This document shows, one piece after another, positions 2,356 to 24,906 of a DNA stretch of 32,112 nucleotides. A program made the translations under genes and the position numbers. Below the pieces are notes generated by a model. The model saw only the letters and a program-made list of their open reading frames with translations. It did not search any database and had not been told where the DNA came from. Each line of letters begins with the position of its first letter. Within the stretch, counting starts at the first letter, position 1. Location of the stretch: the NCBI GenBank assembly GCA_947581905.1, contig CANPWC010000006.1, positions 1-32,112 of the forward strand. Direction: 5' to 3'. This DNA is from an uncultured Acetatifactor sp. Lineage in GTDB: Bacteria > Bacillota > Clostridia > Lachnospirales > Lachnospiraceae.

Positions 2356-3462
2356 TCAAGTGTTTTTTTTGCCCTGGTCCTGCGGCGTCCTGCGGAACTG
2401 GTTCAGCCGGTCTGCCAGCTTCGTGTCCTTGTCAGGGTATAGGTGGGAGTAAGTGTCAAGCGTAGTCTTTACCGATTCATGCCCAAGCCGGTCCGCTATT
2501 TCCAACGGCGAGAAGCCGAGCTCGATCAGCATGCTTGCGTGGCTGTGCCTCAAGTCATGCACCCTGATCGGCTCCAGCCCCGCCCTTTTGGATGCCTGCT
2601 TTATTTCCTTTTCCAGGACGGCTTTGGTGAAATAGAAGATTCGATCGCCTTTCCCGATGCCGTAGACCTTTGATATGTATCCGCAAATATCGTCATACAA
2701 GAAATCCGGGATGGAAATACAGCGCTTGGATTTTGGCGTCTTTGGCTCCAGGATCAGCTCTTCACCATTTGCCCTTACATAGTTCTTATTTATGTCTATC
2801 CGCTTTGATGGGAGTATGTCCGCAGGGGTAAGGGCCAGCAATTCCCCGCAGCGGATCCCGGTGTAGAACAAGATATCGAACGCCAGCTTCACGGCAGATT
2901 TCTGTATGGCGTTTGAGAACTGCTCATACTGCTCCTGTGTCCATATGTGCATTTCCTCCGCCCTGTTCTTCCCCATGCCGCCTGCGGTCCTGCATGGGTT
3001 GAAAGGGAGCCGGTAATGCGCCACTGCATAATTCATCAGGGCGGACATCTGGTTATTTACGGATTTTAAATACGTCTGCGAAAAAGGCTTTCCGTCCTCG
3101 TCGCGATAGGAGATCAATTTATTCTGCCACTTCCGGATTTTTATGGTATCTATATCGCAGATTTTCATCCGCCCAAAATAGGGGAGGAGCTTTCTTTCAA
3201 TGATGTAATGCTTATTTTCCATCGTGGTCGGCTTCAGCCGGTTCTCCATGTCATTTAGGTAGTTTTCCACAAGGGAAGAAAAGAGGATGTCGCTGGTATT
3301 GTTCTGTTTATCCAAGAACAAACGCTCATACTCTTTCGCCTCCCTCTGTGTCTTGAACCCCCTCTTGCATGTGTGCCGGTTCTTACCGGTCCAGTCTGTA
3401 TAGTTGAAGGCGGCATACCACATGGTCTTGCCGTTTTTGAGGGTATACTTATAAGCCGGCAT
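2356..3462 (-). CDS. int: Phage/ICE site-specific tyrosine integrase
   Basis: Arm-binding-like N-terminus; catalytic R in TGIRCGELLAL, HDLRHSHASMLIELG, LGHESVKTTLDTYSHLYP. Confidence 0.93.
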   Translation of the reverse strand: MPAYKYTLKNGKTMWYAAFNYTDWTGKNRHTCKRGFKTQREAKEYERLFLDKQNNTSDILFSSLVENYLNDMENRLKPTTMENKHYIIERKLLPYFGRMKICDIDTIKIRKWQNKLISYRDEDGKPFSQTYLKSVNNQMSALMNYAVAHYRLPFNPCRTAGGMGKNRAEEMHIWTQEQYEQFSNAIQKSAVKLAFDILFYTGIRCGELLALTPADILPSKRIDINKNYVRANGEELILEPKTPKSKRCISIPDFLYDDICGYISKVYGIGKGDRIFYFTKAVLEKEIKQASKRAGLEPIRVHDLRHSHASMLIELGFSPLEIADRLGHESVKTTLDTYSHLYPDKDTKLADRLNQFRRTPQDQGKKNT

Positions 3463-7862: not shown

Positions 7863-8531
<669 letters not shown>

Positions 8532-8885: not shown

Positions 8886-9704
8886 ATGGGCATGAACGAG
8901 CCGGATGAAAGGTTGGAAAAGTTCCGGGAATGGATGGAGGAGAAGGAGCTTTCCGAGAGCACGATAGAAAGCTATACCTATGCGGCCAGGCTGTTCTTTG
9001 AAAATTATAGAGAACTCACGAAAGGGAATTTGATCAGCTACAAGAGGATGCTGATGGAAAAGCACTCCCCCAAGACGGCGAACATAAGGTGCATTGCCAT
9101 GAACCAGTATTGCGAGTTCGAAGGTAGGCGTGACTTGGTTTTGAAGAACGTCAAGATCCACAAAGCGACGACCGTGGAGAACGTCATATCCGTGGAGGAA
9201 TATAGGAGCCTGGTTTCCAGGCTACAGGAAGACGGGGACGAGAAAGGCTACTTCCTGGTCAAGTTCTTGGCGAAAACGGGTGCGAGGGTCAGCGAGATAA
9301 TCCGATTCAGGAAGCAGGACCTGGAAAAGGGATATTGCGAGATGTGGACGAAGGGAAAGGTCAGGAGGATATACATACCGGATTCATTGAAGGAAGAGTC
9401 GGAGGAGTATTTCGCAGGGGTGAAAGGGGAACTGCTGTTCCCGAACAGGCAGGGAAAGATGATGTCCACAAGGGGTGTGGCGGAACGGATAAAGAGCATG
9501 GGGATCCGTTACGGGATCAACGGAAAGGTGATGCACCCGCATTCCTTCCGCCACCTATATGCCATCGAGTTCCTGAAGCGGAATAGGAATGTAGCACTCC
9601 TCGCGGACCTGATGGGGCATGAGAGCGTGGACACGACGGCGATCTACTTGAGACTGTCGGAGGAGGAGCAAAGGAAGCAGCTGAACGAGGCGGCGAGCTG
9701 GTAA
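8886..9704 (+). CDS. XerC/D-like tyrosine recombinase
   Basis: TGARVSEIIRF, HPHSFRHLYAIEFLK, LADLMGHESVDTTAIYLRLS. Confidence 0.9.
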   Translation: MGMNEPDERLEKFREWMEEKELSESTIESYTYAARLFFENYRELTKGNLISYKRMLMEKHSPKTANIRCIAMNQYCEFEGRRDLVLKNVKIHKATTVENVISVEEYRSLVSRLQEDGDEKGYFLVKFLAKTGARVSEIIRFRKQDLEKGYCEMWTKGKVRRIYIPDSLKEESEEYFAGVKGELLFPNRQGKMMSTRGVAERIKSMGIRYGINGKVMHPHSFRHLYAIEFLKRNRNVALLADLMGHESVDTTAIYLRLSEEEQRKQLNEAASW

Positions 9705-9715
9705 GGAGCAAATAA

Positions 9716-10453
9716 ATGTTCTTTTTCACAATGGAAAACGCATGTGCGCCCTATGAGGGAAAGGGCGCGTGCATGCCGGAGAGGCTTCCCGGGGCGGATG
9801 CGGAAAGGGACGCCTGCAAGCGGGAGATCCTGAAGGCGCTCCAGAGGATGTCGGGAAAGCATCACCCAAGGGACGTCTTCCATGACTGGGTGGAGTGCAT
9901 GGCGATCTCGATCAGCAACTCATGCCACCTATTGCACGGGGCCGTCTGGCGGGAGCGGGAGGAGGCGTACATCGCGACCATGGGCAAGTACGACGCCGGG
10001 GAACGGCAGGCGATCGTGGAGATGTGCGCATGGCTCGTAAAGGCGCTTGGGGCGTGCGAGGGCGACGTCCTGGGGCAGGTGTACATGGAGTGCGAGATGG
10101 GGAGCAAGGGGGCTGGGCAGTTCTTCACGCCATATTCGGTAAGCCTCGTGTCCGCCGAGATGGCGCTGGGGGAAGTGGGCGACGGCATGGTCAGCATAAA
10201 CGAGCCAGCCTGCGGCAGCGGGGGCATGGTCATAGCCGCGGCAGACGTCCTACGGCGCAGGGGGATCAACTACCAGAGGCGCTTGGACGTGGTATGCCAG
10301 GACCTGGACTGGACGGCGGTCTGCATGTGCTATGTGCAGTTGAGCCTGCTAGGGATCCGGGCGGTGTGCTCACGCGGGGACACGCTGACGCTGGATGGAT
10401 TTAAAGAAAGGGACACGCTGGTGACGCCGGCGAAGATGGGGTTGCTGCTATGA
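9716..10453 (+). CDS. N6-adenine DNA methylase-like protein, short form
   Basis: GQFFTPYSVSLVSAEMAL and motif-I-like NEPACGSGGMVIAAADVL; no (D/N)PP(Y/F) motif IV found before the stop. Confidence 0.75.
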   Translation: MFFFTMENACAPYEGKGACMPERLPGADAERDACKREILKALQRMSGKHHPRDVFHDWVECMAISISNSCHLLHGAVWREREEAYIATMGKYDAGERQAIVEMCAWLVKALGACEGDVLGQVYMECEMGSKGAGQFFTPYSVSLVSAEMALGEVGDGMVSINEPACGSGGMVIAAADVLRRRGINYQRRLDVVCQDLDWTAVCMCYVQLSLLGIRAVCSRGDTLTLDGFKERDTLVTPAKMGLLL

Positions 10454-11493
10454 GGGAGGAATTGCTGGAAAAGTTGACGTTCCTGCTAAGCGCCCATGGG
10501 GTCGTGGACAAGGGGCTCATAAGCGAGCTGGTGATCCTGCTTAACGACTACGACGTGCAGAAGAGGGCCACGGAGGTCGCGTTGAGGACGGACGGCAACG
10601 GGGAGCTGGTGAAGAGGTTCCTAATGGCCAAGCTGGTGGAGGGGCGCTCTGACAGGACGGTGGAGTATTACGGGATGGAGCTCCGAAGCATCCTGGACAA
10701 GATCGGTAAGCCCGTGGAAGAGGTGACGACCAACGACGTGCGCTATTACATGGCCGTGCGCGACCGGCGGGACCACGTGAGCGCGGTCACGCGGGACAAC
10801 GAGCGGAGGTGCCTGCGGTCCTTTTACGCGTGGCTGGTGGACGAGGGGCTGGTGGCGCGCAACCCGATGGCTAGGCTGGACGTGATCAAGGGGCGAAAGG
10901 AAAAGAAGAAGGCTTTCACCGAGATGGAGGTTGAGAGGATGCGGGACGCCTGCAAGGGGGAAAAGGAAAAGGCGGTGTTCGAGCTGCTTTTGTCTACGGG
11001 CTGCCGGGTGTCGGAGCTGGCCGGGATGAAGCTGCAGGACGTGGAAGGGAACCACGTAAGGGTCCTTGGCAAGGGGAACAAGGTAAGGAACTGCTACCTG
11101 AACGCGAAAGCGCAGGTGGCGCTGATGAACTACATGGACAAGCGCGAGGACGGGAACGGCTACCTGTTCGCCGGGCGTGCGGAACGGCAGGCGGGCAAGC
11201 GGGTGGCGGCGGAAGACTGGTGGAAGCATGCGGAATGCGTGGACCAGGGCAAGCCGACGACGGCAAGCGCCATAGAGTCGATGGTCCGAAACCTGGGGAA
11301 AAGGGCGGGGGTGCCTAACGCGCACCCGCACCGCTTCCGGCGGACGTGCGCGACGATGGCGCTGCGGCGCGGGATGCCCCTGGAGCTCGTGAGCAAGATG
11401 CTGGGGCATGATTCCATCGGCACCACGCAGGTCTACCTGGACATGACGGAGGGCGAGCTGGAAAGCGCCCATGGCAAGTACGTGGTCATATAG
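10450..11493 (+). CDS. XerC/D-like tyrosine recombinase/integrase
   Basis: STGCRVSELAGM, HPHRFRRTCATMALRRG, VSKMLGHDSIGTTQVYLDM. Confidence 0.9.
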   Translation: MREELLEKLTFLLSAHGVVDKGLISELVILLNDYDVQKRATEVALRTDGNGELVKRFLMAKLVEGRSDRTVEYYGMELRSILDKIGKPVEEVTTNDVRYYMAVRDRRDHVSAVTRDNERRCLRSFYAWLVDEGLVARNPMARLDVIKGRKEKKKAFTEMEVERMRDACKGEKEKAVFELLLSTGCRVSELAGMKLQDVEGNHVRVLGKGNKVRNCYLNAKAQVALMNYMDKREDGNGYLFAGRAERQAGKRVAAEDWWKHAECVDQGKPTTASAIESMVRNLGKRAGVPNAHPHRFRRTCATMALRRGMPLELVSKMLGHDSIGTTQVYLDMTEGELESAHGKYVVI

Positions 11494-13229: not shown

Positions 13230-14243
13230 ATGGAAAACACATCTTTAGCAACAATCTTGGAGCATCCGGAGGAATACACCATGTTGATCCCGATCGAGAC
13301 GGTGTCGCATATCCCGGAGATCATGGCGCCAACGATCAAGTCGGTACGGATATCCACCGACCTTAACGACAAGGAGATCTACGTGCAGGAGAAGGCGCAG
13401 GAAGCCTATACGGACCGGACGGGCAAGTACCATCCGGCGACGCCGGCCAGGTACTCCCTCACCAAGAAGGCGCTTACCAAGCTGGCGGAAGCCGCCGGGA
13501 TAAAGCAGGTCTCAAGCGAGCCCGTGCTCCCGACCATATGCCAGAAATGCGTGTCCGTAAACAAGCATGCCGGCAGGGTGCTGCAATGCGGCAACTGCAA
13601 GAGCAACCAGGACGTCCGTTACAAGGTGACGATAGCGTTCCCGCAGCTCACGGGGGAGACGCTGTATTTCGTCGACCACCATGAGATCGACGTCGGGACC
13701 GTCACGGACTCGATGACGGACAAGCAAAAGAATGAGTTCCTTAAGCACCGTGCGCAAATCTGCGAGGCGAAAGCCATGAATGGGGCGATCAGGACCGCGC
13801 TGCAGATCAAGGGCTCCTACCTGATCGAGGAGTTCCAGAAGCCGTTCGTGGTAGGCTACTTGGTGCCCAACTTGGACAATGATGCCGTCAAGCGGGTAGC
13901 GATCGAAAGCATGTTCCAGAGCCGGAACAACCTGTTCGGCCATGCGCCGGGGAATGGCATGGACGCCCTGCCGGTCAATAAGGTCGGGATTGACAGGGGC
14001 CATTACGACCAGGACTACGACGACGTCGTAGACGTGCAGGAGGCGGAGGATTCCATGGCGGGCTGCCCGGCCCCAGCGGATCCGGAGCCACAGGAGGCGG
14101 AGCAAGAAATAGAGGATAGGACGATGGACTTCATGTGCGACAAGTGCCGGGCCGTCATATCGAGGAAGGTATGGGAATACTCCCGCGATAAGTACGGGCG
14201 GCCGCTGTGCATGAAATGCCAGAGGGGGGCGGAGAGGATATGA
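13230..14243 (+). CDS. Putative phage recombination/ssDNA-associated protein with two zinc-ribbon-like motifs
   Basis: SD ATAAGGAGG; CQKC...CGNC in the middle and CDKC...CMKC at the C-terminus; sits immediately upstream of the SbcD-SbcC fusion. Function is contextual. Confidence 0.55.
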   Translation: MENTSLATILEHPEEYTMLIPIETVSHIPEIMAPTIKSVRISTDLNDKEIYVQEKAQEAYTDRTGKYHPATPARYSLTKKALTKLAEAAGIKQVSSEPVLPTICQKCVSVNKHAGRVLQCGNCKSNQDVRYKVTIAFPQLTGETLYFVDHHEIDVGTVTDSMTDKQKNEFLKHRAQICEAKAMNGAIRTALQIKGSYLIEEFQKPFVVGYLVPNLDNDAVKRVAIESMFQSRNNLFGHAPGNGMDALPVNKVGIDRGHYDQDYDDVVDVQEAEDSMAGCPAPADPEPQEAEQEIEDRTMDFMCDKCRAVISRKVWEYSRDKYGRPLCMKCQRGAERI

Positions 14244-14683
14244 GGATGATAAGGGTAAAGACGGACCTGGTGATGACGGTGCATGAGTACCCGTCCGGCA
14301 CTTATGCGGAGCAGGACGAGCGCCTGCGGCAGCTGATCGGGAACGGTTGCCGCACATATGAGCACGTCAAGCCAAACAGGCTTTATACGGAGCTCCACAT
14401 GGTGCGCGACGTTTCCAGCAAGCCCGGGGCATGCGTGTGCATGCTGGTGGACGAGGAAGGAAGGCTGAAGGAAAACGAGGTAAACCTGCTTGGCAGCTGG
14501 CTATACGGGGCAGACATGCACGGGGACCCGATCATGGGGAACGTCCTGTTCGTTGGCGAGGAATGGGTAGGCAACGGGATAGGGTTCTGCGGCATAGACG
14601 AAATGATGTTCCATTACCTTGAGAAGCAGTTGTTCTACTTGATAGCGAAGATGCGGGTGGCAAAGGAGGCGAAAAGGATATGA
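14240..14683 (+). CDS. DUF3846-like protein
   Basis: MLVDEEGRLKENEVNLLGSWLYGADMHGDPIMGNVLFVGEEW resembles DUF3846; overlaps both neighbours by 4 nt. Confidence 0.6.
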   Translation: MRMIRVKTDLVMTVHEYPSGTYAEQDERLRQLIGNGCRTYEHVKPNRLYTELHMVRDVSSKPGACVCMLVDEEGRLKENEVNLLGSWLYGADMHGDPIMGNVLFVGEEWVGNGIGFCGIDEMMFHYLEKQLFYLIAKMRVAKEAKRI

Positions 14684-17600
14684 GGATTTTACATACCGCG
14701 GACTGGCACTTGGGCACGTTCCGCAGCCCCGTAAAGGGAGGGGTGAACCTGCGGACGGAAGACACGAGGCGGTGCCTGGACGAGCTGGTAAGGGTGGCGA
14801 GGGAAGAGGTCCCGGATTACACGCTGATATCCGGCGACGTGTTTGACGCAGGCAAGAGCTGGTCCGACAGGTGCTGCCCGGAGGTCGTCATGGCGGCCCA
14901 GTACATCAAGGACCTTGCGGAGGTGTCAAGGCATGTCATCGTGATGCGCGGGACCCCCAACCATGACGGGGACGTGATAGGTCAATTCAACGTCCTATCG
15001 GAGATGTTCGGTGGACGCCAAAACGTGCACGTCGTGGCGACGCCGCAGGTGGTCAAGTTTGAGGACGTGGACGTCGCGGTGCTGCCTGGGTTTGACAAGG
15101 GCGTATACAGGGCGGGCAACCCTGGGCTGTCCAACGAGGAGGAGAACGAGGAGGTCACCAAGGAGCTATCCAACATCGTCCTCGGGCTTAAGGCGCAGTG
15201 CAGCCCATCGAAGAGGAGCATCCTGATGGCGCATTACACGGTCCCAGGCTGCAACATGGAGAGCGGGCAGACGACGATGCTGGCACGGTTCGAGCCGGTC
15301 ATCCCGCAGGAGGCGTTGTTGGCGGCCGGCTTCGACCTGGTAGCCTTGGGGCACATCCACAGGCCGCAGAGGATATCCCCAACGCAAAACTGGTTCTATG
15401 CAGGCGCGATAAACCAGATCAATTTCAACGACGAGGGGCAGGAACGAGGCTTCTGGATTCACGAGGCGGACCCGGCAGGCGGCTGGAAGAGCACGTTCCA
15501 CGCCACCCCGGCCAGGGAGCACGTTACAATCAAGCTCCAGGACGAGGACGTCACGGCGATCAACCTGGGTGGCATTGACGGGGTGGCGCTGGAGCATTGG
15601 CGCCTTGACGGCGCGGTGGCTGGCAAGATCGCCAGGGTCCGCTACAGCTGCTCCGAGGATAACGCGCAAGCTCTAAAGCTTAACGAGGCGCGGCTGGCGA
15701 AAGCCTTGCTGGATGACGGGGCCTTCATGGTATGGGACATACTGCCTGACAAGGTCGAGGAGTACGCCAACCGGAAAGAGGCAGCCGGCACGGCGGACCC
15801 GGAGGAAAACCTCATAAAATACCTGGAGGAAAAGGAGGTCCCGCCTGAAAAGGTGCAGGAGCTCGTCCTAAGGGCCAGGCCCATCATCGCGGAGGCGGAG
15901 GCGGGGATGCCTACGGCCGCCAACACGGGCGCCTTTGAGCCGGTGGAGATATCGGTCCATAACTACCGCAACTACGAGGACGAGACGTTCAACTTCGAGC
16001 CCGTCACCTTCTGCACCATCAACGGGCAGAACGGGGCGGGAAAGAGCAGCCTGTTCATGGATGCAATTTTGGACTGCCTGTACGAGGAGCCGAGGGAGGG
16101 GGTCATCAAGGATGATTCCGGCAAGCCCCCCTGGCTGCGGAACGACGTGTCGGCACGTTCCGGCTCCATCATGTTCACCTTCAAGGTCGGCGAAAAGCAG
16201 TACCGGGTGACAAGGACCAGGACAAGGTCGGGGAGGGGGACGCTCAACATCGCCTGCCTTATCGGAAGTGAATGGGAAGACTGCTCCAAAGAGCGCTCCG
16301 CCGACACGCAGCAGGAGATCCTGGACATCATCGGCATGGACAGCCTTACCTTCCGGTCCTGCGCTCTGATCATGCAGGACCAGTACGGATTGTTCCTCCA
16401 GGCCAAGCCGGAAGAAAGGATGGAAGTCCTTGGCAGGCTGCTCGGGCTTGGCATCTACCAGGCGATGGAGGGGATCGCGCAGGACAAGTCAAAGGAGGGC
16501 AGGGACAAGGCAAAGGCGGTAAAGCAGGAGGTCGACATCAAAAGCGGCACGATCGCAAGCCTTGGGGACCCCGATGGGGAACTGGAAGCCTGCCGCGCCG
16601 GGCTGGAACTGGACAAGGAGGCCCTGCGGGCGGCGTCCGCGGAGCTGGACAGGGACAAGGCGCTCCTCTCAAGCTGCCAGGAAGCCTCAAACAGGCGCGG
16701 GAAGCTGTTGGCGTCCATTACAGCCTTGCAGGCTAAAAAGGCTGCTACAGGTCAAAATAGGGACATCCAGAGGGAGATAATCGACGGCTGCGACGCCCTG
16801 CTGGCGGAAAGGGGCAAGGCGGAAGCCAAAGTGGCGGAATACCACTCCCAAGTGGAAATGGAGGGCAGGCTCGCCAGGGAATCCGCGCTGTATTCCGCCA
16901 AGAAAGAGGAGGCGGAAAGCCTTACGCGACAGGCGGAGGCGGAGCAGGCGTCCATTGACGGCATCAAGCGTAAGGCACAGCAGAAGGAAAGGGAGCTGGA
17001 ATCGTTGCAGCCTACAGGCCAGGATGCCGTCGTCAAGGAGAAAGCCGAGGAATACGGGCGGTATGTGGGCCTCCTGGAAAAGGAAAGGGAGCTCCAGGCA
17101 AGGCACGCGGCAGCCATGGCGGAAAGGGACCGTATCGCTTACGCCATCCACAGCAAAAAGGCCTACATGGACCAAGGCAAGCGGAGCCTGGACGCAAGGA
17201 AGGCGGACATGGAGCGCCGCACGGAGCTGCTCGGGGATTCCGGTTGCCCGGACCCTGAACATGCGGAATGCAGGTTCCTGGCGGACGCGCTGGAAGCGAA
17301 AAAGGGGCTCCCAGCCTTGGAAGGCGAGATCGCGGCGTTCGTCCGGGGCCAGGGGGCGGAGCTGGAGGGGCTGGAAAAGGCGCTCGAGGAAGCGGAAAAG
17401 AAGGCGCTTGAAATCGGCTACAACGAGGAGCGGTTGCAGGAATGCCAGAGGATGGCACGCGAGCTGTCCGTTTACCCGGCGGCCCTGAAAAGGATCGAGG
17501 AACGGGAAGGCAAGGCGGCCATCATCCAAGCCGACCTGGGGAACCTGCGGTCAAACATGCTCGAGGCGGAAAAAAGGCTCGAGGCGGCCAAGGCGAAGCT

Positions 17601-18546
17601 GCGTGAAGCGGAAATGGAGCGTGACAAGCACGCTGGAGCGCATGAGGAGCATGCGAGGGTGCAAAGGTCGATCCTCGAGCTTAAGCCTTGGCTAGAAAAG
17701 GAAAGGCAGATCGCGGTGGCGGAGGAAAGGGAGCGAACGGCAGCCTCCCGGATCCTGGAGCTCACCAGGGAACTGGAAGCCATCGACGCGGAGATCGAGG
17801 AGAAGCAGGGGGAGGCAGACAGGGAAGCCCTGGCGATGGCGGGCATGGAGGACCTGGCCTGGAACGCCTCCCGCCTGGAAGCCGAGGTGCAGGCGGCCAG
17901 CGGGCGCGTGATGGCCAAGCAGGTGCAGATCGGCGCGCTCCAGCAGAAGTCGGAGCAGCTGGCGAAGCTGAAATCGGAGGTCTCCGGATTGCTGGAAAGG
18001 CAGGCCGCGTACGCGAAGGAAACGGCGGAATACGACGCCCTGAAGGCGGCTTTCAGCCAGAGCGGCGTCCCCCACCAGGTCATCCGGTCGATCATCCCGC
18101 ACCTGACGGCAACGTCCAACTCCATACTGGGGCAGATGACCGGAGGGAAGATGGGCGTGGAGTTCAGGCTCGAACGGACGCAGAAGAACGGCAAGGAAAA
18201 GCCGTCATTGGACATCTACATCGAGGAGTATGGAAAGCCCGCCCTCCCGTACCTGTCAAAGTCGGGCGGTGAAAAGGTGAAGTCCTCCCTTTCCGTCATC
18301 CTCGCCCTCGCCGAGACCAAGTCGTCATCAGCCGGGATCCAGCTTGGGATGCTATTCGTCGACGAGCCCCCGTTCCTGGACGGGGACGGCGTGCAGGCGT
18401 ACTGCGACGCGCTGGAGGCCATACAGGGACGGTACAGGGGCATCAAGGTCATGGCGATCACGCATGACCCGACCATGAAAGCCAGGTTCCCGCAGAACCT
18501 GGACGTCATAAAGACGGAGAACGGCAGCAAGGTCGTCTTCAGATAG
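14680..18546 (+). CDS. Fused SbcD-SbcC (Mre11-Rad50-like) nuclease/SMC-type ATPase, 1288 aa
   Basis: N-terminal metallophosphoesterase (HTADWHLG, SGDVFDAG, GTPNHDGD, MAHYTV, ALGHIHRPQ); Walker A NGQNGAGKSS; Q-loop IMQDQYG; coiled coil; signature LSKSGGEKVKSS; Walker B GMLFVDEPP; H-loop ITHD. Confidence 0.93.
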   Translation: MRILHTADWHLGTFRSPVKGGVNLRTEDTRRCLDELVRVAREEVPDYTLISGDVFDAGKSWSDRCCPEVVMAAQYIKDLAEVSRHVIVMRGTPNHDGDVIGQFNVLSEMFGGRQNVHVVATPQVVKFEDVDVAVLPGFDKGVYRAGNPGLSNEEENEEVTKELSNIVLGLKAQCSPSKRSILMAHYTVPGCNMESGQTTMLARFEPVIPQEALLAAGFDLVALGHIHRPQRISPTQNWFYAGAINQINFNDEGQERGFWIHEADPAGGWKSTFHATPAREHVTIKLQDEDVTAINLGGIDGVALEHWRLDGAVAGKIARVRYSCSEDNAQALKLNEARLAKALLDDGAFMVWDILPDKVEEYANRKEAAGTADPEENLIKYLEEKEVPPEKVQELVLRARPIIAEAEAGMPTAANTGAFEPVEISVHNYRNYEDETFNFEPVTFCTINGQNGAGKSSLFMDAILDCLYEEPREGVIKDDSGKPPWLRNDVSARSGSIMFTFKVGEKQYRVTRTRTRSGRGTLNIACLIGSEWEDCSKERSADTQQEILDIIGMDSLTFRSCALIMQDQYGLFLQAKPEERMEVLGRLLGLGIYQAMEGIAQDKSKEGRDKAKAVKQEVDIKSGTIASLGDPDGELEACRAGLELDKEALRAASAELDRDKALLSSCQEASNRRGKLLASITALQAKKAATGQNRDIQREIIDGCDALLAERGKAEAKVAEYHSQVEMEGRLARESALYSAKKEEAESLTRQAEAEQASIDGIKRKAQQKERELESLQPTGQDAVVKEKAEEYGRYVGLLEKERELQARHAAAMAERDRIAYAIHSKKAYMDQGKRSLDARKADMERRTELLGDSGCPDPEHAECRFLADALEAKKGLPALEGEIAAFVRGQGAELEGLEKALEEAEKKALEIGYNEERLQECQRMARELSVYPAALKRIEEREGKAAIIQADLGNLRSNMLEAEKRLEAAKAKLREAEMERDKHAGAHEEHARVQRSILELKPWLEKERQIAVAEERERTAASRILELTRELEAIDAEIEEKQGEADREALAMAGMEDLAWNASRLEAEVQAASGRVMAKQVQIGALQQKSEQLAKLKSEVSGLLERQAAYAKETAEYDALKAAFSQSGVPHQVIRSIIPHLTATSNSILGQMTGGKMGVEFRLERTQKNGKEKPSLDIYIEEYGKPALPYLSKSGGEKVKSSLSVILALAETKSSSAGIQLGMLFVDEPPFLDGDGVQAYCDALEAIQGRYRGIKVMAITHDPTMKARFPQNLDVIKTENGSKVVFR

Positions 18547-18597: not shown

Positions 18598-18640
18598 AAG
18601 CCAGGGAAATCAGAAAGGCGGTTTGCAAGGAGGAAAGCGC

Positions 18641-18976
18641 ATGGCTCGACCTAAAGAGGGAGATGAATGTTGTTTCCCAAAATGGAAACCGGGATTTCGC
18701 ACAAGACGAAAATTCTATTCGGAGGAATTCCGCGAAAGGTATAAAGCCTTGAGAAACTCGTCTGATAATTTTATTAAGAGGTCAGATGTCAGGGAGTATA
18801 TTTTTCGCAAATATGGCGGGAAATGCCATCTGTGCGGGGCAAAGGCCGATTTGCAGATAGATCATATCACATCTGTCTATGAAGTGGCTCGTAAAATGAC
18901 CGGAATAGGCATGCTTAATTCTGAATGCAATCTGGCCCTTATTTGCCGAAGATGTAATTCCGGGAAAGCTCCATAA
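18641..18976 (+). CDS. HNH endonuclease
   Basis: YGGKCHLCGAKADLQIDHITSVYEVARK...LNSECNLALICRRCNSGKAP. Confidence 0.9.
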   Translation: MARPKEGDECCFPKWKPGFRTRRKFYSEEFRERYKALRNSSDNFIKRSDVREYIFRKYGGKCHLCGAKADLQIDHITSVYEVARKMTGIGMLNSECNLALICRRCNSGKAP

Positions 18977-23611: not shown

Positions 23612-23864
23612 ATGGGTTGCGAGGAAGCCGGCCAGGAACGAGGCGCGGTACCTCAAATATGGGTTCGTCCCCATGGCGTTCCAGGGCTTTGTATGCCCCA
23701 GGTGCGGCAACGGCTTGAACGCCGGGCCAGGCCACCAGCCGAACTACTGCGACAGGTGCGGGCAGAAGCTGGACTTCAAGGGGATCGGATGGGGCCCTGG
23801 AATGGAGGAAAGGGCTGAAGGAAGGGGGGATTGGCGTGAACAGGTCGAAGATAGAGTGGTGTGA
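23598..23864 (+). CDS. Zinc-ribbon protein
   Basis: CPRCGNGLNAGPGHQPNYCDRCGQKLDF. Confidence 0.7.
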   Translation: MMLPKWVARKPARNEARYLKYGFVPMAFQGFVCPRCGNGLNAGPGHQPNYCDRCGQKLDFKGIGWGPGMEERAEGRGDWREQVEDRVV

Positions 23865-24906
23865 CCACACCTGGAACCCCATAACGGGATGCCGGCATGG
23901 CTGCCAATACTGCTATGCCAGGCGCATGGCCTCCAGGTTTGCCGGCGACGTCAGGCTCAACCTGATGGCAAGGAAGGATTATTCGGTTGAGCCCGCGGCT
24001 GACGGCGGGGAATGCCTATATGTGCTGGACGCCCCGATGTTGAATGAAACCGGGAAACCGTTGGCATACCCGTTTGGGTTCGCCTCCACGCTGCACAAAT
24101 ACCGGATGGAAATGCCAGGGAAGCTAAAGATGGGGTGCAACATATTCGTGGGCGCCATGTCGGACGTCTTCGGGGCGTGGGTGCCGGACGGGTGGATCGG
24201 GCAGGTGATGGACGCCTGTGGTAGGTACCCCATACATAACTACCTTTTCCTGACCAAGAACCCGGACAGGTACATAGGCCTGGAATCAAAAGGGGAGCTG
24301 CCCGAAAAGAAGAACATGTGGTACGGGATGAGCGTGACGTGCGAAAGGGACACATACACGGCGGAGGCGGTCATGGCGGAATTGCCGGCGGGCGCGGGCG
24401 CGTACTTGAGCATAGAGCCCCTGCTGGAGGACGTAGTGACTGACGCCCTGGAAATAGTGATAGCCAATTTCGTCGACTGGGTGATCATCGGCGCGGAAAC
24501 GGGAAACAGGAAGGGAAAAGTCATCCCGCGCACGGAGTGGGTCAGGAAGATCGTGGAGGAGTGCGACGAGGCGAATATCCCGGTATTCATGAAAGGCAGC
24601 CTCGTGCCGATCGTCGGGGAAGAGAACATGCGCAGGGATTTCCCGGAACAGCTCCTTAACCATGACGCTAGCCCCAAGATGAAGAGGAAGCTGTATGGCG
24701 TATGCGCCGGATGCAAAGCGCACCTGAAAAAGAGCGACATGGTAGCCCTGCTTGCGCGGTCTAAGAGGGGCGAGCAGCCGAAACAGTACGGGTTCATGTG
24801 CAAAGACTGTTTCAGGCGGTCCTGCGAAGGCTTAGGGCTGGGCATCCCGGAACTCGCGGGACTGGCTGGAAGCGCCATGGCCGGGACGGGAGGCGCGGAT
24901 GGCTAA
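23836..24906 (+). CDS. DUF5131 (phage Gp37/Gp68) family protein with radical-SAM-like CxxxCxxC
   Basis: SKIEWCDHTWNPITGCRHGCQYCYARRMASRF; SVTCERDTYTAEAVMAELPAG...LSIEPLLEDV; VIIGAETGNRKGKVIP; GTG start. Confidence 0.88.
   Translation: MNRSKIEWCDHTWNPITGCRHGCQYCYARRMASRFAGDVRLNLMARKDYSVEPAADGGECLYVLDAPMLNETGKPLAYPFGFASTLHKYRMEMPGKLKMGCNIFVGAMSDVFGAWVPDGWIGQVMDACGRYPIHNYLFLTKNPDRYIGLESKGELPEKKNMWYGMSVTCERDTYTAEAVMAELPAGAGAYLSIEPLLEDVVTDALEIVIANFVDWVIIGAETGNRKGKVIPRTEWVRKIVEECDEANIPVFMKGSLVPIVGEENMRRDFPEQLLNHDASPKMKRKLYGVCAGCKAHLKKSDMVALLARSKRGEQPKQYGFMCKDCFRRSCEGLGLGIPELAGLAGSAMAGTGGADG

Follow-up and report, generated by a model that had tools for sequence, protein, structure and literature searches.

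Known fusions and related systems

Fusion proteins of Mre11 and Rad50 (SbcDC) were described by Yoshida, Claverie and Ogata in 2011 from Clostridium, Ruminococcus and Anaerostipes, from plasmids and from a Bacillus phage (PMC3175470). According to that paper, cellular hosts of the fusions generally keep a normal SbcCD, the retained helix-loop-helix (HLH) region and a linker of 9-12 residues fit the known Mre11-Rad50 complex, and recurrent fusion across all groups was argued for (PMC3175470). The SbcD-SbcC fusion itself is therefore not new, and where the preliminary description of the DNA analysed here had presented it as a departure from the two-gene norm, the fusion proves real and its novelty falls to the 2011 publication (PMC3175470). 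The words hook, zinc and CXXC do not occur in the text of the same paper, its sections drawn on here say nothing of an upstream partner gene, and no later account was found in the open-access literature.

The CxxC zinc hook is reported to be kept in every domain of life. Among phages, synaptase-exonuclease pairs are represented by lambda Red, RecET and SPP1 gp34.1/gp35. Herein, a window of 32,112 nucleotides from an uncultured Acetatifactor sp. (contig CANPWC010000006.1) was analysed, in which a fused SbcD-SbcC gene with a longer predicted hook lies downstream of a gene for a probable RAD52-like protein.

Architecture of the fused gene

The fused gene is read from an ATG and stays open throughout its 1288 codons. 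Its start overlaps the preceding gene by 4 bases (ATGA), and the Shine-Dalgarno-like AAAGGAGG stands directly 5' of it. The following parts were recognised.

14680-18546, + strand: fused SbcD-SbcC (Mre11-Rad50) protein, 1288 aa (ORF, Pfam, PHROG and family alignment)
14680-15462, + strand: SbcD/Mre11-type nuclease domain, residues 1-261, metal-ligand motifs complete
15463-15906, + strand: capping region and the helix-loop-helix that binds Rad50, residues 262-409 (domains named after the Mre11 literature)
15907-15942, + strand: linker of about 12 residues (410-421), from the alignment
15943-16530, + strand: SbcC/Rad50 ATPase N-lobe, Walker A at residues 449-456
17236-17289, + strand: long-loop hook at the coil apex, residues 853-870, C856-x7-C864-x-F-L
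18040-18543, + strand: SbcC/Rad50 ATPase C-lobe with signature SKSGGE, Walker B and H-switch

As the preliminary description had proposed, both halves are complete within one polypeptide, and the profile searches agree on this: residues 1-229 match Pfam Metallophos and 424-617 match AAA_23, while residues 1-452 correspond to PHROG 100 (SbcD-like) and 254-1286 to PHROG 77 (SbcC-like). The nuclease motifs are DWH (8-10), GD (52-53), GTPNHD (91-96), H185 and GHIH (224-227), and the ligands D8, H10, D53, N94, H95, H185, H225 and H227 are present and strongly conserved in the family alignment. The GTPNHD motif, singled out earlier for its departure from GNHD, is present as described; it is no peculiarity of this single protein, since GTxNHD runs through the fusion family. 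On the ATPase side, Walker A (GQNGAGKS, 449-456), Walker B (VDEPP) and the H-switch (H1262) accompany the ABC signature LSKSGGE (1192-1198), which had been reported for this protein and is found family-wide. An AlphaFold model spanning residues 270-1288 (mean pLDDT 82) gave Rad50, SbcCD and SMC structures as its Foldseek matches, with helices predicted at 374-384 and 389-409 in the Rad50-binding region. The capping/HLH region and the 9-12 residue linker of the published fusions are thus both found in the window protein, and linker length is constant in all 81 aligned fusion members.

Searches of viral contigs and genomes yielded 93 distinct full-length fusion sequences, alike in architecture and length (relatives about 32-65% identical); in them the ATPase motifs are kept, as are nearly all of the metal-ligand motifs. 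Because many independent contigs carry the same ORF, an assembly join, a frameshift artefact or chance is excluded, and the ORF truly joins SbcD to SbcC, with the catalytic motifs of both intact. In five records (L013, L016, L019, L032 and L042) ATT, not ATG, stands at the aligned start, which suggests that the start codons are non-standard or that translation truly begins elsewhere. In Eubacterium plexicaudatum ASF492 (L095) the fusion copy is broken into three frames, either as a decaying prophage gene or through sequencing errors.

Distribution and phage context

As to the spread of the fusion between phages and chromosomes, a question raised in the preliminary description, most of the 93 sequences come from viral contigs, and a phage terminase is present in 36 of the 42 larger viral records that hold fusion members. 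Relatives also occur in genomes of Lachnospiraceae, Oscillospiraceae and other Clostridia; one genome record with a relative is labelled Bacteroides. Only 4 of 60 same-genus genomes contain a fusion relative, as expected of a mobile element, and the host genome encodes separate, canonical SbcD and SbcC, the latter with the hook CPVCGS. In addition to the fusion, the window, read as part of a prophage in a gut-type Clostridia genome, encodes a replication initiator, a RecU-like resolvase and a sliding clamp. No phage structural genes were recognised on its contig and the terminase match in its own genome is marginal; part of the element may therefore be missing or lie on other contigs.

Several further genes of the element were recorded. 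Three tyrosine recombinases and one serine resolvase lie at 2356-3462 (-), 7923-8531 (+), 8886-9704 (+) and 10450-11493 (+). The first of these adjoins guaA (264-1826), a plausible integration site; a second copy of the guaA end, as a mark of integration, was not found in the genome. A short N6-methyltransferase-like ORF (9716-10453) is upstream of the fusion here, and its relatives are downstream in 40 of 92 loci. Directly 3' of the fusion, an HNH endonuclease-like ORF (18623-18976) is shared by only 2 of 92 loci and is possibly a recent insertion. A DUF5131/radical-SAM-like protein (23836-24906) is kept downstream in 45 of the 92.

The preliminary description had also suggested an anti-host function, and the gene could in principle be an anti-phage defence or anti-host nuclease borne by the element, given weak matches of its ATPase to the LmuB (Lamassu) and Mads models. 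These matches reflect the generic ABC-ATPase only, which leaves an anti-host role unsupported: PHROG 77 matches far more strongly (3e-107 against 7e-20), the gene sits among the replication and recombination genes of a phage-like element, and no LmuA-type partner was found among the five ORFs tested (the fusion and its nearest neighbours). A defence function is thus considered highly improbable.

The hook at the coil apex

The C-x7-C that had been reported in place of CxxC was borne out. Its cysteines, C856 and C864, lie at 50-51% of the SbcC part, and in the AlphaFold model the coil helices break exactly at this pair, forming a helix-turn-helix apex. Nine other SbcC/gp46 proteins, from phages, plasmids and one Listeria record, carry CxxC at 50-51%. 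A canonical hook elsewhere in the coil was looked for and is ruled out, as CxxC is absent from the entire window protein; it is likewise absent from the coil of all 81 aligned members. Both hook cysteines are invariant in these 81 sequences, and of all positions in the 516-residue coil C856, C864, F866, L867 and A870 alone are identical throughout. The spacing is C-x7-C in 90 of the 93 fusion sequences and C-x6-C in the other three.

From the alignment and the model we infer that the fusion hook resembles that of Rad50 in place and cysteine number and has a longer loop, a form that appears to be unreported. Alternatively, the loop might carry no zinc and serve as a structural or redox element or as a place where another protein, such as the annealing protein, docks, with dimerisation through heads and nuclease only. 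The spacing is indeed unlike that of the CxxC hooks in the literature consulted, loops of 6, 7 and 10 residues are tolerated, and the invariant F866, L867 and A870 alongside suggest a protein contact surface. Against this, exactly two invariant cysteines occupy the apex where Rad50 has its zinc pair, the protein is expected to be cytosolic, and H861 of CPDPEHAEC, considered as a third zinc ligand, is not conserved, so that no loop histidine would be required. A loop without zinc is therefore regarded as rather unlikely. A large lineage with both cysteines at another spacing would offer a natural test of what the hook must do.

The upstream partner gene

Two genes precede the fusion on the same strand.

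13230-14243, + strand: probable RAD52-fold single-strand annealing protein with a C-terminal zinc ribbon, 337 aa, PHROG 13782
14240-14683, + strand: small DUF3846-like protein between partner and fusion, with ATGA overlaps on both sides

Of 92 fusion loci, 87 have the partner gene directly upstream in the same orientation, with a median gap of 46 bases, and 31 contain the DUF3846-like gene. In the reverse search, started from the partner, an SbcD-like gene came next in 78 of 80 loci, and in the remaining two the sequence ends about 100 bases downstream. Such a near-constant, probably RAD52-like neighbour of the fusion appears to be undescribed.

In the sequence libraries the partner matches PHROG 13782 alone, a family without assigned function. 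The cysteines of its C-terminal zinc ribbon (C303, C306, C327 and C330) are invariant. An ETKALNRAIR helix had prompted the suspicion of an annealing protein ahead of the structure search. The AlphaFold model of the partner (mean pLDDT 84) was compared with the PDB, where the first 16 matches are all human RAD52 (best E 0.0066, probability up to 0.96, with low TM-scores), and with viral structures, where RAD52, RecT and ERF make up most of the functionally named matches (best E 2e-4, probability 1.00). None of the known annealing-protein sequence families matched; profile comparison with small Rad52, ERF and RecT sets gave probabilities of about 0.1-0.2%, that is, no relation. Since that comparison is negative, the assignment is made at the level of the fold, and the model indicates that the partner is probably a RAD52-like annealing protein of a distinct family. 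A probable function is thereby assigned to PHROG 13782. No other annealing genes were recognised in the flanks of the fusion loci save two weak ERF matches, and the host genome has no Pfam match to RecT, ERF or Rad52.

The pairing also bears on a rival reading, in which the fusion is of the ordinary published type and acts alone in phage DNA replication and end repair, like T4 gp46/47, the upstream gene being a co-regulated but functionally separate early protein. Published fusions do have intact motifs, some of them being plasmid-borne and one coming from a phage (PMC3175470), and phages of the T4 and SPO1 types have SbcCD without a RAD52-like neighbour. However, the pairing is almost obligate even though partner sequences diverge to about 23-30% identity, and the predicted fold of the partner matches RAD52. 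Independent action of the fusion is accordingly judged unlikely.

Origin of the fusion and of the long hook

The reverse search also recovered loci in which separate, overlapping SbcD and SbcC genes adjoin the same partner gene, the two being joined through TAATG or ATGA overlaps. In a quick tree of fused and split proteins, a fully supported branch sets the fused proteins apart, with the split proteins as their sister. The outgroup branches are very long, and the direction, fusion rather than fission, therefore rests on parsimony. Within the lineage of the window fusion a single fusion origin suffices. L147, a 59,182-base record, falls inside the fusion family in the tree; we take it to be, probably, the C. 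kluyveri plasmid of the published fusion study. In L214 (8532-10319) what comes after the partner gene is an SbcD part that runs on into unrelated sequence, and the rest of that contig has no SbcC match.

The split SbcC relatives beside the partner gene carry C-x7-C, or in L216 C-x10-C, each followed by x-F-L. The separate SbcC of L216 (8251-10803), with C-x10-C-A-F-L, has the longest spacing seen. The long hook is thus not a result of fusion, since the unfused sister pairs have it too. Because it is present in split SbcC beside the partner, the long hook characterises the partner-linked lineage rather than the fusion.

A probable phage recombination module

Altogether, the phage recombination role put forward in the preliminary description is supported by the conserved RAD52-like gene adjoining the fusion. 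As the simplest interpretation, we consider it probable that a phage-borne single-chain Mre11-Rad50 forms the exonuclease half, and the upstream gene the annealing half, of a recombination module. Dimer contacts between two fused chains would lie in the nuclease, in the ATP-bound heads and at the apex of the coil. There, the invariant C-x7-C of each chain may contribute to holding a shared zinc ion, as CxxC does in canonical Rad50, but within a longer loop. Opening driven by ATP would enable end resection by the nuclease, and the strand so exposed would be coated and annealed by the RAD52-like protein while phage DNA is replicated and repaired. Nuclease activity, zinc binding, the form of the dimer and the annealing function of the module are what we infer from these features. 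The chances appear evenly balanced for a broader claim, namely that the long-loop hook (C-x6/7/10-C-x-F-L) fusion and its near-obligate RAD52-like partner of PHROG 13782 constitute an undescribed, widespread phage system whose hook is adapted to the partner. A nuclease with Mre11 and Rad50 in one chain, encoded beside a putative annealing protein, would make end resection accessible to study in a compact system of two genes, possibly usable for recombineering in anaerobic Clostridia.

Comparison with known systems

The fusions of 2011 share with the window protein the domain order, the capping/HLH region, the short linker, the sporadic spread on mobile elements and Clostridia among the hosts. 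Canonical SbcCD, T4 gp46-gp47 and SPO1-like SbcCD have the same nuclease ligands, ATPase motifs and coil with an apex cysteine pair, but are encoded by two genes and carry a CxxC hook; in the records examined they also show no conserved RAD52-like neighbour, unlike the fusion loci. The synaptase-exonuclease pairs of phages provide a parallel in organisation, as there too a nuclease adjoins an annealing protein (here a predicted one) in an early phage operon. Their nuclease is a simple 5'-3' exonuclease, whereas that of the present locus would, judging from its motifs, be an ATP-dependent Mre11-Rad50 fusion, and the annealing protein predicted here belongs to a distinct family with a zinc ribbon.
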